This document shows, piece after piece, positions 1 through 6,263 of a DNA stretch of 6,263 nucleotides. Origin of the DNA: a bacterium (GTDB lineage Bacteria > ARS69); the NCBI GenBank assembly GCA_025774865.1, contig JALGZO010000537.1, positions 1-6,263 on the forward strand. The letters run 5' to 3'. The stretch's first letter is position 1. Every line of letters begins with the position of its first letter. The translations under genes were made by a program, and so were the position numbers. The notes beneath the pieces are model-generated. The model had not been told where the DNA came from. It saw only the letters and a program-made list of their open reading frames with translations, and searched no databases.

Positions 1-624
1 GGTATGGCCGACGATCGAGCCTTCCAGCGACGATACCTCTTTCCGGTGGAGCTCACCCGCGGCAAGAAGGTGACGGGTACGGTGGAAGCCGACGAGGGAG
101 TGTTTCCGACCACCGCCGACGGTCTGGCGAAGCTCCGCACCGTGTTGGAAGGGGGCACGGTCACGTTCGGCACCCAAACGTACCCGGCCGACGGCAATGC
201 CGGGCTCGTGGTCTGCGGAGAGGAGCAGGCAGCGCGGCTCAGCGGCGACGGCAACCCGACCATTCGACTGTTGAGCTTCGGCGAGGCGCGCGTGGAGCCG
301 GCCATGATGCCGAAGGCGGTGGTGCCGGCCGCCCGAGATGCCCTCAGGCGGGCCGAGATCGAGATCGGAGATTGCGCCGTCATCAAGACGCACAATCCCT
401 TCGCCGTGAACGACGTGATCTTCTGCCGCGAATTCGGTCTCGAGCCGGAGCGCGTCAATCGGTTCGGCTCCCCGCTGATCTGGGGGCACCCTCAGGCCCC
501 CACGGGACTGAGGGCCGTCATCGAGATGATCGAGGAACTCGCCCTCGCGGGCGGAGGCTACGGCCTCTTCTCGGGATGCGCCGCGGGTGACACTGCCATG
601 GCCGTCGTCCTCAAGGTGGGTTGA
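1..624 (+). CDS. Thiolase family protein, C-terminal half (5' partial)
   Basis: The reading frame is open to the left edge. The ATG at position 4 aligns to the middle of a thiolase, so the gene very likely starts outside the window; thiolases are about 390 residues and roughly 207 are present. Numbering from that ATG, the visible family features are GTVTFGTQTYPADGNAGLV (51-69, the TAGNAS...DGAA region), MMPKAVVPA (101-109, the 'MGxGPVPA' region), NPFA (131-134, in place of NEAFA), the GHP catalytic His at 162 and SGCAAGD with the second catalytic Cys at 192. The N-terminal nucleophilic Cys is off-window. Thiolases form or cleave 3-ketoacyl-CoA in fatty-acid or polyester metabolism in the cytoplasm. 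The variant NPFA and GCAAGD motifs mark a divergent subgroup, so the substrate cannot be named. It ends with TGA, 30 nt from the convergent HEAT-repeat gene. The family is secure; the exact reaction is not. Confidence 0.88.
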   Translation, partial: GMADDRAFQRRYLFPVELTRGKKVTGTVEADEGVFPTTADGLAKLRTVLEGGTVTFGTQTYPADGNAGLVVCGEEQAARLSGDGNPTIRLLSFGEARVEPAMMPKAVVPAARDALRRAEIEIGDCAVIKTHNPFAVNDVIFCREFGLEPERVNRFGSPLIWGHPQAPTGLRAVIEMIEELALAGGGYGLFSGCAAGDTAMAVVLKVG

Positions 625-2271: not shown

Positions 2272-2898
2272 CTACAGCCACCAGGAGGCACCCACCAGGA
2301 TCTTCGCCGCGGTGCCCTTTTCCTCAATGGGGGTCTCCGCGGTGAAGTCGCCGGCCGGTGTGTGCAGCGTGGCGCGCGTCTTCTCCCAGTTCACGAACTC
2401 TCCGCGCACCGAGAAGTCGAGGGCGAACGTGTCCCCGAAGAAATAGAGTACCCCGCCGCCCCCGAGAATCCCCGGACCGGTGGTCTCCCAGTCGAGCGCG
2501 TCCTTGCGGGAACGAAGTGCGAACCCGCCCACGCCGCCGTAGAGGTAGGGGCGTAGCGGCTCCGGATTCCGAAACAGGTACATGCCGTCGATGGTCACGC
2601 CGGCGTAGGCCACCTCTATGTCCGGGTCCGAGGTGTCGTGCCCAGCGGCGCTGAGAGACAGCCGCACCGGGAACGACGGCGTAAAACCCCAGCCGAAGAA
2701 CAGGTTCGCGCCGCCGCCGACCTCGTCGACGAAGACTGCGGCGGGATCCGGATCGTCGGGGCGATCCGCAGCTCCTACGCGGTTCGACTGCAGATCGATC
2801 CCGAAGAAGAAGCCGTCGGTGTCGGCGGCCGCGGGGAACGCCGTCGCGAACAGCGCGAGGGCGAAGGTACAGAGTCCGGCGAGGCGTGTGGTCTTCAT
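2272..2898 (-). CDS. Small outer-membrane beta-barrel protein
   Basis: A 208-residue precursor with a Sec signal peptide: MKTTR, a hydrophobic core at 6-22, then PAAA with likely cleavage after A25. The mature part alternates hydrophobic/aromatic and polar residues in strand-like blocks: GFFFGIDL; ANLFFGWGF then PVRLSLSAAG; VAYAGVTIDGMYLF; LRPYLYGGVGGFALRS; GILGGGGVLYFFGDTFALDFSVRGEFV; and AAKILVGASWWL. This fits an eight-stranded barrel of the OmpA/OmpW/opacity-like class (about 180 mature residues). The phrase 'RPYLYGGVGGF' is typical of that class. The last residue is Leu after WW rather than the usual Phe. The start ATG overlaps the stop of the response-regulator gene (ATGA), with a perfect AGGAGG 6 nt upstream, so translation is coupled to the regulator. 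Its role is unknown; it could be an output, an envelope sensor accessory or a simple porin-like protein. It is the last gene of the operon. Confidence 0.85.
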   Translation of the reverse strand: MKTTRLAGLCTFALALFATAFPAAADTDGFFFGIDLQSNRVGAADRPDDPDPAAVFVDEVGGGANLFFGWGFTPSFPVRLSLSAAGHDTSDPDIEVAYAGVTIDGMYLFRNPEPLRPYLYGGVGGFALRSRKDALDWETTGPGILGGGGVLYFFGDTFALDFSVRGEFVNWEKTRATLHTPAGDFTAETPIEEKGTAAKILVGASWWL

Positions 2899-4319
2899 GG
2901 CGTCCCTCCTGTGGTTTCGCCGATGGCATACACTTGGATCTTCTTGTGCAAGTTGGTTCGATCGATTCCCAGGAGCCGGGCCGCGCGGGACACGTTGCCG
3001 TCCGCCTCGCGGAGCGCACGCCGGATGGCCTCGGCCTCGAAGCGCCGCCTGGCTGCGACGAGTCCTCCCTCGGCTCGGATCCAGGCTGACGACGTGGCCG
3101 GCGGCCCGGCGTCCTCCGCCCCGCCGGCATGGCCCGGCGCCGACGGTATGGCGGCCAGCCCCACTCCGGCCCGGTCGAGGTCCGCTAGCGTGATCTCGCT
3201 CCCGCTCGTCATGATCGCGAGTCGCTCTACGGTGTTCTCCAGCTCACGCACGTTGCCCGGCCATGCGTGCGCCGACAGTGCCTCCAACGCGTCCGGCGCG
3301 AAACGCGTCGGTGGTCGGTTGTTCTCCAGGCGAAAGCCCTCCAGGAAGTGCCGGGCCAGCTTCGCAACGTCGCCCGGCCGCTCGCGCAGCGGCGCCGCGC
3401 GCAGCGGGACGACGTTCAACCGGAAGTAGAGGTCCTCACGGAATCGGCCGGCCGCCACCTCCGCAGTGAGGTCCTTGTTCGTGGCCGCGATCACGCGCAC
3501 GTCCACCTTTACGGTTCCGCTGCCACCCACGCGCTCGATCTCGCCTTCCTGCAATGCGCGCAGCACCTTCGCCTGCGCCTTCTGGCTCATGTCCCCGATC
3601 TCGTCGAGGAACAACGTGCCGCCATCCGCCTGCAGGAACTTGCCGTCCCGAGACGAGTCCGCCCCCGTGTAGGCCCCCTTCACCGCGCCGAACAGTTCGC
3701 TCTCGATGAGCTCCTCGGGGATCGCGGCGCAGTTCACCTTCACGAACGGGCCGGCGCTCCGCTCACTGGACTCGTGCACGGATCGCGCGACGAGTTCCTT
3801 GCCGGTCCCGCTCTCGCCGAGAATGAGGATGCGTGCGCTCGTGGGCGCCGCCCGGTCGATCTCCTCGCGAAGAACCTTCATCACCGGCGAGTCGCCGATC
3901 ATCACGTGCCGGCGATCCTCGCGCTCCTTGAGCTCCCGCCACTCTCGCCCCACCGTCCGCAGCTGCAGCGCGTTTCGCACCGCCACGAGCACGCGCTCCC
4001 GACTGAGCGGCTTTTCCAGAAAGTCGAAGGCCCCCTCGCGCGTGGCTTCCACGGCGGTCGCCACGCTCGCGGCCCCGGAAATCATCACGACCATTCGGTC
4101 GGGATCCGATCGCTTCAGTGCGCGCAGCATCTCGAGCCCGTCGATGCCGGGGAGATTCACGTCGAGGAGGACCACGTCAGCCGCCTCCCGCTCGAGCCGC
4201 GCCAGCCCTTCTTCCGCACTGGCCGCCACCATCACGTCGAACCCCTCGGACGACAGGACCATGCGCAGTGTGCGGCGGATGTTCTTCTCGTCGTCCACGA
4301 CGAGAATGCGGTCGCTCAC
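2895..4319 (-). CDS. NtrX/NtrC-like sigma54-dependent response regulator
   Basis: A 474-residue cytoplasmic activator in the standard three-part layout. The receiver is about 1-120, with acidic pocket D9/D10, phosphoacceptor D53 (LLDVNLP), S81 and K103. The AAA+ sigma54-activation domain is about 140-385: Walker A GESGTGKE (168-175), GAYTGA loop (215-220), Walker B LFLDEIG (236-242), the arginine-finger region GRFREDLYFRLNV (291-303) and sensor II WPGNVREL (353-360). A Gly/Ala/Pro-rich linker (about 384-412) leads to a Fis-type HTH (about 428-465, GNVSRAARLLGIDRTNLHKKI). It should remodel sigma54-RNA polymerase after phosphorylation. The start is GTG at 4319, overlapping the kinase stop by 4 nt, with AGGAGG 7 nt upstream. 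The loop carries Tyr where GAFTGA has Phe, a known natural variant. The neighbouring NtrY-like kinase makes the NtrX-type assignment likely; target genes are not visible here. Confidence 0.96.
   Translation of the reverse strand: MSDRILVVDDEKNIRRTLRMVLSSEGFDVMVAASAEEGLARLEREAADVVLLDVNLPGIDGLEMLRALKRSDPDRMVVMISGAASVATAVEATREGAFDFLEKPLSRERVLVAVRNALQLRTVGREWRELKEREDRRHVMIGDSPVMKVLREEIDRAAPTSARILILGESGTGKELVARSVHESSERSAGPFVKVNCAAIPEELIESELFGAVKGAYTGADSSRDGKFLQADGGTLFLDEIGDMSQKAQAKVLRALQEGEIERVGGSGTVKVDVRVIAATNKDLTAEVAAGRFREDLYFRLNVVPLRAAPLRERPGDVAKLARHFLEGFRLENNRPPTRFAPDALEALSAHAWPGNVRELENTVERLAIMTSGSEITLADLDRAGVGLAAIPSAPGHAGGAEDAGPPATSSAWIRAEGGLVAARRRFEAEAIRRALREADGNVSRAARLLGIDRTNLHKKIQVYAIGETTGGTP
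2905..2910 (-). promoter_or_regulatory. Ribosome binding site of the barrel-protein gene
   Basis: A consensus AGGAGG lies 6 nt before the ATG at 2898, inside the last codons of the response-regulator gene. It shows that the 4-nt overlapping start is real and suggests strong translation of the final operon gene. Confidence 0.8.
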
Positions 4320-5779
4320 GACGTCGCCTCCTCCGCCGGCGCGGGAGCTGTCGGCAGATGAACGGTGAATGTGGTTCCGCTACCGACTTCGCTTTCCACC
4401 TCGATACGGCCCCCGTGACCGCGGACGATTTCCGCCACGATCGCGAGTCCCAACCCCATGCCCTCCGATTTCGTGGAGAAGTTCGGCTCGAAGATCCGCT
4501 CTCGGTTCTCGGGCGCGATGCCGCAGCCTTCGTCGGCGGCCCGGATCGCGACGTCAGCATTCGTCGTGGCCGAAAGCGTGACGCGCTCCGGTCGCCCAGC
4601 TTCGCGGCACGCAGCCAGGCCATTGTCGATCAGGTTGATCAGGGCTCGCCGGAGCTCCGCTTCGTCGAATCGGGCGTGCAGTGGGCTCGATCTCACGTGG
4701 TACGTCACGCGCTCCCCGTAGAGCCGCGACAGATCTCCCAGCAGCGTGGATAGATCGCCGGGAGTGGGCCGAGGGGCGGGAAGACGCGCGAACTCCGAGA
4801 ACTCCCGAACGAGGCGGCGCAGGGAGTCGGTCTCTTCGTTCACGATCTCCGCGCACTCTGTGAGGAGCGCGACGAATTCTGGATCAGCGCGGCCGGGCGC
4901 CTGGTCACCCAGCTGCTGTACGGCCAACTGGATCGGTGTGAGCGGGTTCTTGATCTCGTGGGCGAGGCTGCGGGCGATGTCGCGCCAGGCGGCCATCCGT
5001 TCCAGGCGCGAGAGTTCGCGCCGCTGAGTCTCGAGCTCGTCGACCATCTGATTGAACGCGTCTACGAGCTGCCCGACCTCGCCGGGCGCACGGATGCTCA
5101 CGCGGGTCCCCAGATCTCCGCCGCCGACGCGGAGCGCCGCGTCGGCCAGCGCCTCCACGGGGCGCGCGAGCCGTCGGGCCATCACGCCCCCGATGGCCGC
5201 GGCCACGGCGAGCAGCAACACGTACGTGAGCACGAACGGGAGAACGTATCCGCGGAGCACGGCGCTACGCTCCAGCTGCCAAGCGCGGAGCATCGCCAGC
5301 GTGCCGGTGATCTTGTCCGCGGTCTCGGTCATCCGGGCGTCGAGCGGCCACGCGAGAACGCGCGCGCCGTCGTCGCCAGACACGAGAACGACCAGGTGAT
5401 CGCCGACCCGCTCAGGACCGATCCTCGCCGCGCTATCGTCGCGGCGCGCCGCGGCCCGCGCCCAGTCGGCTACGGCGCTCGGGAGCTCGCCTCGAAGGGA
5501 CCCGTCCGGCCGGAGCTCGGCTTCCCGCACATCCGGCGTCCGCACCGCGTCCGCCGGGAGCTCCTCTCCGGACGCGAATCGCGCGAGTGCTTTCTTGTCC
5601 CGTCGAAGCTGCTCGCGCGACGCGTCGAGCGCGGCCTCCAGTGCCTCGTCCACCTCCGCGGACAGCGGCGACCGGAAACTCCTCTCCAGGAGGCTGCTCA
5701 CGAGCACGGACAACGGCGCCGCGGGGAGCAGCGCCACCACGAGCGCCGCGAGCACGGTGCGAGTTCGCAGGCGGTTCAT
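4316..5779 (-). CDS. NtrY-like membrane sensor histidine kinase
   Basis: A 487-residue inner-membrane kinase. TM1 is about 9-30 and TM2 about 177-199; they flank a periplasmic region of about 145 residues that I do not recognise. HAMP follows (about 200-252, ARRLARPVEAL...AFNQMVDEL). The dimerisation/phosphoacceptor domain has H274 in SLAHEIKNPLTPIQLAVQQL, an H-box of NtrY type. The catalytic ATPase domain has the N-box INLIDNGLAA (381-390), G1 DEGCGI (417-421 core), F-box IFEPNFSTK (429-437) and G2 GMGLGLAI (440-447). All key residues are present, so it should be active. It is shorter than typical NtrY, with two rather than several membrane segments and no room for a PAS domain between HAMP and the H-box. 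The ATG overlaps the stop of the upstream DUF4390-like gene (ATGA), with GGAGG 4 nt before it; its own stop overlaps the regulator start. The cognate partner is surely the downstream regulator; the signal is unknown. Confidence 0.95.
   Translation of the reverse strand: MNRLRTRTVLAALVVALLPAAPLSVLVSSLLERSFRSPLSAEVDEALEAALDASREQLRRDKKALARFASGEELPADAVRTPDVREAELRPDGSLRGELPSAVADWARAAARRDDSAARIGPERVGDHLVVLVSGDDGARVLAWPLDARMTETADKITGTLAMLRAWQLERSAVLRGYVLPFVLTYVLLLAVAAAIGGVMARRLARPVEALADAALRVGGGDLGTRVSIRAPGEVGQLVDAFNQMVDELETQRRELSRLERMAAWRDIARSLAHEIKNPLTPIQLAVQQLGDQAPGRADPEFVALLTECAEIVNEETDSLRRLVREFSEFARLPAPRPTPGDLSTLLGDLSRLYGERVTYHVRSSPLHARFDEAELRRALINLIDNGLAACREAGRPERVTLSATTNADVAIRAADEGCGIAPENRERIFEPNFSTKSEGMGLGLAIVAEIVRGHGGRIEVESEVGSGTTFTVHLPTAPAPAEEATS
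4327..4332 (-). promoter_or_regulatory. Ribosome binding site supporting a GTG start of the response regulator
   Basis: AGGAGG lies 7 nt upstream of the GTG at 4319, within the 3' end of the kinase gene. It confirms the GTG initiation codon, which begins the conserved receiver start (residues SDRILVVDD), and indicates coupled translation of kinase and regulator. Confidence 0.75.
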
Positions 5780-6263
5780 CGATCCTCCGCGGATTCCGGA
5801 AGCTCGTCCGGCACGAACCAGGGCGAAAACCGCTCCGACGCCTCGTCCGCGTCGCGCTTCGCCCCCTTATAGAAGAAGCGGATCACGTCGCTCAACCCGA
5901 CCGAGATCTCACGGCCATCGGCGCTCTCGCGCCGGTCCGTTCCGCCGGTCACCCACCGCTCGAGGCGCTCCGTCTCCCGAGGCGCGATCATGTGGAGCCG
6001 GCACTGCGCGCGGATCCGGTGGCGCTGCGCCCCAGCCACGCTTGCGAACGACGCCACGGGCAATCGCGGCAACACCTCCAGGAAGTGCTGGAGCGAGGCG
6101 AGATCCGCGAACCGCTCGTCCGCGCCTCCGCCCTCGACGCGAAACACCTCGTCCCACAGGTCGTACGCCACGCGGAAGAGCACGCGTTCCTCGGCAACGG
6201 TCCGGTCCCGCTCGTCGTGCAGATCCAGCTGCATCTCGATCGCGGATGGAAGCCCGCTGTCCA
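5776..6263 (-). CDS. DUF4390-like protein (5' partial)
   Basis: The frame is open to the right window edge. The first in-frame ATG (6234) is preceded by coding-like residues DSGLPSAIE, and a 'GLP' followed by a strand and 'E..R' is part of the family pattern, so that ATG is internal and the true start lies outside. About 162 residues are visible. Recognisable DUF4390-type features are YDLWDEVFRVE, then RFADLASLQHFLEVLPRLPVA, a strand with RIRAQCRLHMI, ERLERWVTGG, and a C-terminal tail with FFYKGAKR and FSPWFVPDEL. Family members are secreted or envelope proteins of unknown function, usually 170-200 residues; any signal sequence would be off-window. It precedes an NtrY-like kinase with a 4-nt overlap, as I recall for this family in Betaproteobacteria, which supports the call. 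A role in envelope signalling alongside the kinase is inferred from position only. Confidence 0.72.
   Translation of the reverse strand, partial: DSGLPSAIEMQLDLHDERDRTVAEERVLFRVAYDLWDEVFRVEGGGADERFADLASLQHFLEVLPRLPVASFASVAGAQRHRIRAQCRLHMIAPRETERLERWVTGGTDRRESADGREISVGLSDVIRFFYKGAKRDADEASERFSPWFVPDELPESAEDR
5784..5788 (-). promoter_or_regulatory. Ribosome binding site of the kinase gene
   Basis: GGAGG lies 4 nt before the ATG at 5779, in the last codons of the DUF4390-like gene. The spacing is a little short but consistent with translation coupled through the ATGA overlap. Confidence 0.55.

Follow-up and report, generated by a model that had tools for sequence, protein, structure and literature searches.

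Organization of the locus

The locus described here raises the question of what kind of signalling system is encoded by four tightly packed genes, the last of which specifies an outer-membrane barrel protein, and whether its components may act together across the cell envelope. The window, i.e. the whole 6,263-nucleotide stretch of DNA analyzed, corresponds to the entire contig G000:C541 of a fragmented assembly. ORF calling identified four co-oriented genes on the minus strand, encoding a DUF4390-like protein, a histidine kinase, a sigma54 regulator and a small barrel. Genes and junctions are the following:

5776..6261, minus strand, DUF4390-like (PlrP-like) gene, 161 codons, called as ORF, 5' end beyond the contig end
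5776..5779, minus strand, ATGA overlap of DUF4390 stop and kinase start, ribosome site GGAGGA at 5783-5788
4316..5779, minus strand, histidine kinase, 487 aa, ATG start (ORF and Pfam)
5336..5668, minus strand, periplasmic sensor region of the kinase, residues ~38-148 (AF2 secondary structure)
4316..4319, minus strand, GTGA overlap of kinase stop and regulator start, purine-rich site GGAGGAGG at 4327-4334
2895..4319, minus strand, sigma54-dependent response regulator, 474 aa, GTG start (ORF and Pfam)
2895..2898, minus strand, ATGA overlap of regulator stop and barrel start, purine-rich site AGGAGG at 2905-2910
2272..2898, minus strand, small outer-membrane beta-barrel protein, 208 aa, ATG start (ORF and Pfam)

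The three junctions of exactly 4 nt with ribosome sites, on which the original prediction was built, were confirmed. Overlaps of 4 nt mark 10 of 13 homologous kinase/regulator junctions, 6 of 11 DUF4390/kinase junctions and 8 of 14 regulator/barrel junctions; the remaining barrel genes overlap the regulator by 11 nt, follow it at a short distance or have a start that is uncertain. As the same junctions overlap again in diverged loci, the overlaps are more than a chance occurrence. The spacing suggests that the four genes may be carried by a single transcript; the plrPSR genes of Bordetella are comparably tightly spaced, yet internal promoters are used (PMC13001219). Terminator and sigma70 scans across the window gave chance-level signals only. 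The four-gene operon originally proposed stands as a set of co-oriented, overlapping genes, but its size is a lower bound, because the contig end falls inside the DUF4390 gene, and an Omp85 gene precedes DUF4390 in relatives.

The remaining DNA hosts the C-terminal part of an acetyl-CoA acetyltransferase (thiolase; 4-624, plus strand), cut by the contig end, and, on the minus strand, a MerR-type regulator with a GyrI-like effector domain (1310-2119), followed by an ORF at 655-1305.

The kinase and the DUF4390 protein

Pfam recognizes HAMP, HisKA and HATPase_c domains in the kinase, and nothing else. Pfam and AF2 together delineate TM1 (residues ~8-30), a periplasmic domain, TM2 (~172-197), HAMP (199-250), HisKA and HATPase_c (372-478). 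The HisKA motif H274-E275-x-x-N278 is that expected of a bifunctional kinase. In the AF2 model (built from 15 sequences, pLDDT 74) the elements of the sensor come in the order long helix, strand, helix, three strands (local pLDDT about 45-82), an order which, at moderate confidence, appears PDC/Cache-like; no Pfam match to a PDC/Cache domain was found in the kinase. Fold searches were dominated by catalytic cores, with ZraS as best match, and did not inform on the sensor domain.

The DUF4390 gene lies directly 5' of the kinase. The Pfam match (PF14334) is weak on the window fragment (E=1.8e-4, under the cut-off), reaches E=1.6e-7 and 1.6e-10 in fuller relatives, and is above the cut-off in several relatives. 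The protein is 53-57% identical to its homologues in G002 and G001, where the full genes overlap an Omp85 gene. Its N-terminus, presumed to be a signal peptide, lies outside the window; several relatives begin with hydrophobic leader-like segments. PDB sequence searches with DUF4390 and with the barrel returned nothing meaningful. A second DUF4390 gene resides on another contig of the same genome (G000:C780:16975-17328, L193).

PlrP of Bordetella is a DUF4390 protein; genetic work published in 2026 showed that it acts with the NtrYX-type kinase PlrS, and suggests that, by way of the PDC domain, it keeps the phosphatase activity of PlrS in check (PMC13001219). DUF4390 genes precede NtrYX-type systems in beta- and gamma-proteobacteria (PMC13001219). 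The Bordetella system works without an adjacent Omp85 or barrel gene. DUF4390 was not known to have a partner before the PlrP-PlrS link, and that study dealt mainly with Proteobacteria. No Omp85 or barrel partner is described in the passages on DUF4390 that were consulted.

The upstream Omp85 gene and the types of loci

In G001 and G002 an Omp85-superfamily gene precedes DUF4390, and its stop overlaps the DUF4390 start region. The Omp85 match in relatives is above the cut-off (PF01103, E=1e-25 to 1e-22); the POTRA match is weak and under the cut-off (E=0.001-0.002), and a weak ShlB/FhaC match was also seen. As Omp85 precedes and overlaps DUF4390 in relatives, the unit reads Omp85-DUF4390-kinase-regulator-barrel, four of the five genes being in the window. 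The assembly to which the window belongs yielded no Omp85 orthologue, and the gene may fall in an assembly gap. The original prediction overlooked both this gene and the probable sigma54 autoregulation discussed below.

The five genes are complete and co-oriented in G002, G240, G368, G387, G388, G198, G397, G393 and G391, and partial at contig ends in G000, G001, G386, G389 and G405. In three genomes (loci L199, L247, L257) the operon is preceded, upstream of Omp85, by genes for two small proteins, membrane-bound or exported, in which hydrophobic motifs of the LPLNLVESILP type recur.

PF14334 is present in 53 of 386 sampled genomes, and three types of loci were distinguished. Type A loci, which have the PlrP arrangement, consist of DUF4390 and a long kinase (mostly 680-780 aa, mostly with 4 TM helices), usually followed by a regulator, and have no barrel genes. 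Type B1 loci comprise Omp85, DUF4390, a 2-TM kinase, a regulator and a barrel; in type B2 kinase and regulator are followed by Omp85 and DUF4390. As the B2 kinase-regulator pair adjoins a different Omp85-DUF4390 pair, the link between Omp85 and DUF4390 is a recurring one. B2 Omp85 proteins often carry CBM48/AMPK1_CBM repeats: in L180, L186, L187 and L196 (G002, G102, G176 and G138, respectively) these glycogen-binding-like repeats are N-terminal in a kinase-regulator-Omp85-DUF4390 array, and Omp85 of the sister locus in G138 has an additional bactofilin-like stretch. G331 and G200 have Omp85-DUF4390-kinase with no regulator after, and some other surveyed loci are cut or unclear.

The B1 Omp85 profile matched at E below 1e-100 in 5 of 386 sampled genomes; B1 loci are therefore rare, and in this sample limited to three phyla, over which the set is co-inherited. 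Median identity is 27-40% for the four envelope parts, 49% for the kinase core and 58% for the regulator; the set is nevertheless kept together. Flanking genes vary more, some being common to loci within and between phyla. A conserved gene cluster between B1 and B2 loci, ~25-35 kb apart in G368, G240 and G388, was judged to reflect general synteny.

The window's own phylum was sampled with five genomes (G000-G004). Gene order in G002 is the same as in the window, with ATGA overlaps at the kinase/regulator and regulator/barrel junctions; in G001 the same order is divided between two contigs. Neither G003 nor G004 gave a match to the barrel, DUF4390 or the B1 Omp85, and their best kinase matches are core domains of other kinases only, that of G003 having a PAS domain. 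Two irregularities were noted. A tandem duplication of ~20 nt (TCTTCCCGCGGGCATGGTGG) in the G002 kinase gene (L105:10130-10180) coincides with a frame change, and may be an assembly error or a slippage site. The G001 kinase (L108:2826-4142) has a sensor half like that of the window kinase, and dimerisation helices which look like those of another kinase subfamily; a contig end falls there, and either a domain swap or a chimeric contig would account for the mismatch.

The small barrel

The barrel protein consists of a signal peptide followed by an OMP_b-brl domain (PF13505, 31.8 bits, cut-off 28.7); it ends with ...SWWL in the window, with ...F in relatives, which likewise start with a leader. 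A structure model built from one sequence is poor (pLDDT 41). A conserved signal-peptide barrel gene after the regulator, as called for by the original prediction, is borne out: of 15 related loci whose sequence extends beyond the regulator, 14 have it as the next gene, distributed over three phyla (G000, G002, G240, G368, G386, G387, G388, G389, G198, G397, G405, G393, and G391 twice). The refuting condition named beforehand, relatives without the barrel, was tested: G003 and G004 gave no match to the barrel, DUF4390 or the B1 Omp85 at all, and the barrel is missing in one divergent locus, G390:C125.

In the G240 phylum the barrel profile matches 6 of 7 genomes. In the G198 phylum 5 of 47 genomes combine a strong barrel match with a regulator gene immediately before it; in G399 the match is strong but no regulator adjoins it upstream, and several genomes carry barrel homologues outside the operon. 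Given the latter and the locus G390:C125, the system may be able to do without the barrel, or the barrel gene may simply be one of its targets. Its sequences diverge (22-48% identity), and its distances follow those of DUF4390 (0.75) and Omp85 (0.73) better than those of the kinase core (0.49), a weak trend over nine loci. A conserved lipoprotein-like gene (~290 aa, with a lipobox and ...DYNNGE..CWDE... near the C-terminus), mostly on the opposite strand, is found near the operon downstream of the barrel in five genomes (L209, L245, L246, L256, L259).

Sigma54-like sites and the proposed circuit

Sites of the form NGGNAC-N5-TTGC, or close variants, were scored with a sigma54 matrix which approximates the published consensus. 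Of 18 B loci, 14 have such a site before Omp85 (B1 7/10, B2 7/8), vs. 20 of 90 control genes (Fisher p=1.2e-5); the controls were drawn from the same loci and are not free of regulon members. The site is absent before Omp85 in the B1 loci of G002, G388 and G391. Sites in the window are weak and none precedes the operon, because the promoter region lies beyond the contig. Sigma54 autoregulation of the operon is probable, and by extension may hold true for the window's organism.

We favour, with moderate confidence, the reading that the four overlapping genes of the window are the 3' part of a five-gene operon for envelope signalling, a three-component system of the PlrP kind that reaches out to the outer membrane and is autoregulated. 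The presence of Omp85 and barrel genes beside DUF4390 suggests a coupling between the DUF4390 protein and the outer membrane. Like PlrP, it would act on the kinase's periplasmic sensor, setting the kinase/phosphatase balance; the two outer-membrane proteins would make it responsive to outer-membrane state, and the small barrel would, most simply, be a sentinel client or a partner of the Omp85 protein. The phosphorylated regulator would activate sigma54 promoters, among them the one that drives its own operon, with Omp85 as first gene. Gene order, coupling, domain content, the conservation over three phyla and the sigma54-like sites of relatives are observed; contacts in the periplasm, the direction of control and the sentinel role of the barrel are what we infer from them. 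The trans-envelope unit of the original prediction is a fair reading, because a conserved, often coupled barrel is joined by a genetic precedent of DUF4390 acting on a kinase (PMC13001219).

The cell may use the gene set to monitor its own outer membrane. In its most complete form, in which a dedicated Omp85 inserter and its sentinel barrel would report how outer-membrane assembly stands, with DUF4390 as relay across the periplasm, a PDC-type kinase as receiver and sigma54 transcription of the same operon as response, such self-contained surveillance is a tentative proposal, which we regard as rather doubtful. If true, it would represent an envelope-stress pathway of previously undescribed architecture, found in at least three phyla.

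Omp85 and barrel may alternatively be outputs, i.e. autoregulated targets of a two-component system with a PlrP-type modulator, kept adjacent for co-expression. This is possible, though we deem it unlikely. The sigma54-like sites before Omp85 fit the idea, as does the arrangement of most B2 loci, in which the Omp85-DUF4390 pair comes after the regulator, behind a gap of 155-465 nt with a sigma54-like site; barrel sequences are replaceable, and PlrPS signalling needs no barrel (PMC13001219). Translational coupling of the barrel to the regulator, presumably a low-copy position, would however be unusual for an abundant structural output, and B1 loci place DUF4390 between Omp85 and the kinase.

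Family of the regulator and remaining alternatives

The regulator features REC (5-114), AAA+ (140-306) and Fis-type HTH (424-463) domains (Pfam REC/Sigma54_activat/HTH_8). It scores 420 bits against the curated NtrX model, the cut-off of which is 600, and AtoC (best) and NtrC score higher; two PlrP-type regulators have NtrX as best family at 503-533 bits, likewise under the cut-off of 600. The window proteins reach none of the curated cut-offs of the AtoSC/ZraSR families. PAS and NtrY_N domains are absent from the window kinase according to Pfam, and only two TM helices are present. In a tree of 45 regulators, each of types A, B1 and B2 is set apart from the rest by a branch with good support; B1 regulators are monophyletic (support 100/100), and B1 and B2 group together (99/96), type A being opposite that branch. 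Kinase relatives in named genomes are, in the loci checked, Bacteroidota-like kinases (26-39% identity) near which neither DUF4390 nor Omp85 nor a barrel is encoded.

Lacking PAS and NtrY_N, with a regulator under the NtrX cut-off and in a separate clade, the pair is not NtrY/NtrX by these tests, and the identity assigned in the original prediction is not supported; the system resembles NtrYX/PlrSR in its layout, but by the tests applied does not belong to them. An NtrYX system with an incidental, hitch-hiking barrel gene would agree with the position of DUF4390 upstream of NtrYX-type systems in beta- and gamma-proteobacteria (PMC13001219) and in the PlrP-type loci surveyed here. This reading is very improbable: besides the domain content of the kinase and the affinities of the regulator, it is already contradicted by the cross-phylum conservation of the barrel after the regulator. 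Likewise very improbable is that Omp85 and barrel work as a pair in secretion or assembly, one as dedicated inserter and the other as its client, with kinase, regulator and DUF4390 only controlling their expression. The POTRA-like repeat of Omp85, its weak match to ShlB/FhaC and the near-constant presence of the barrel in its operon speak for this; against it, the operon showed no gene for a passenger-like exoprotein, and Omp85-family inserters usually serve many clients.

Comparison with known systems

The five-gene operon is a little-known set, conserved as a group in at least three phyla. Here DUF4390 is tied to Omp85-superfamily proteins, in other phyla and in two types of loci, one of which also includes a small barrel. 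If the link is functional, what DUF4390 senses becomes directly testable, and this kind of two-component system gains an outer-membrane end.

The closest layout is that of PlrP-PlrS-PlrR in Bordetella, which shares DUF4390 directly 5' of the kinase and sigma54 regulator, the 4-nt DUF4390/kinase overlap and a kinase with a periplasmic sensor (PMC13001219); export of the DUF4390 protein, as in PlrP, is presumed for the window. PlrP-type loci encode a 4-TM kinase of about 740 aa and no barrel; the window system differs in its 2-TM kinase without PAS, the barrel downstream, the Omp85 upstream (in relatives) and the regulator clade. NtrY-NtrX has a kinase and a sigma54 AAA+ regulator in common with the window, and differs in the features listed above (NtrY_N/PAS, NtrX score, clade). 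AtoSC/ZraSR share the domain layout of the regulator (best NCBIfam, AtoC) and the kinase core (closest solved core, ZraS), in contrast with the DUF4390, Omp85 and barrel context of window-type loci. The Rcs system (RcsF-BamA/OmpA-IgaA-RcsCDB), in which outer-membrane barrels and a periplasmic reporter feed an inner-membrane kinase, is an analogy only (PMC7553776, PMC9907809); it is a phosphorelay without sigma54, and the homologous parts are just the general Omp85/BamA and small-barrel folds.
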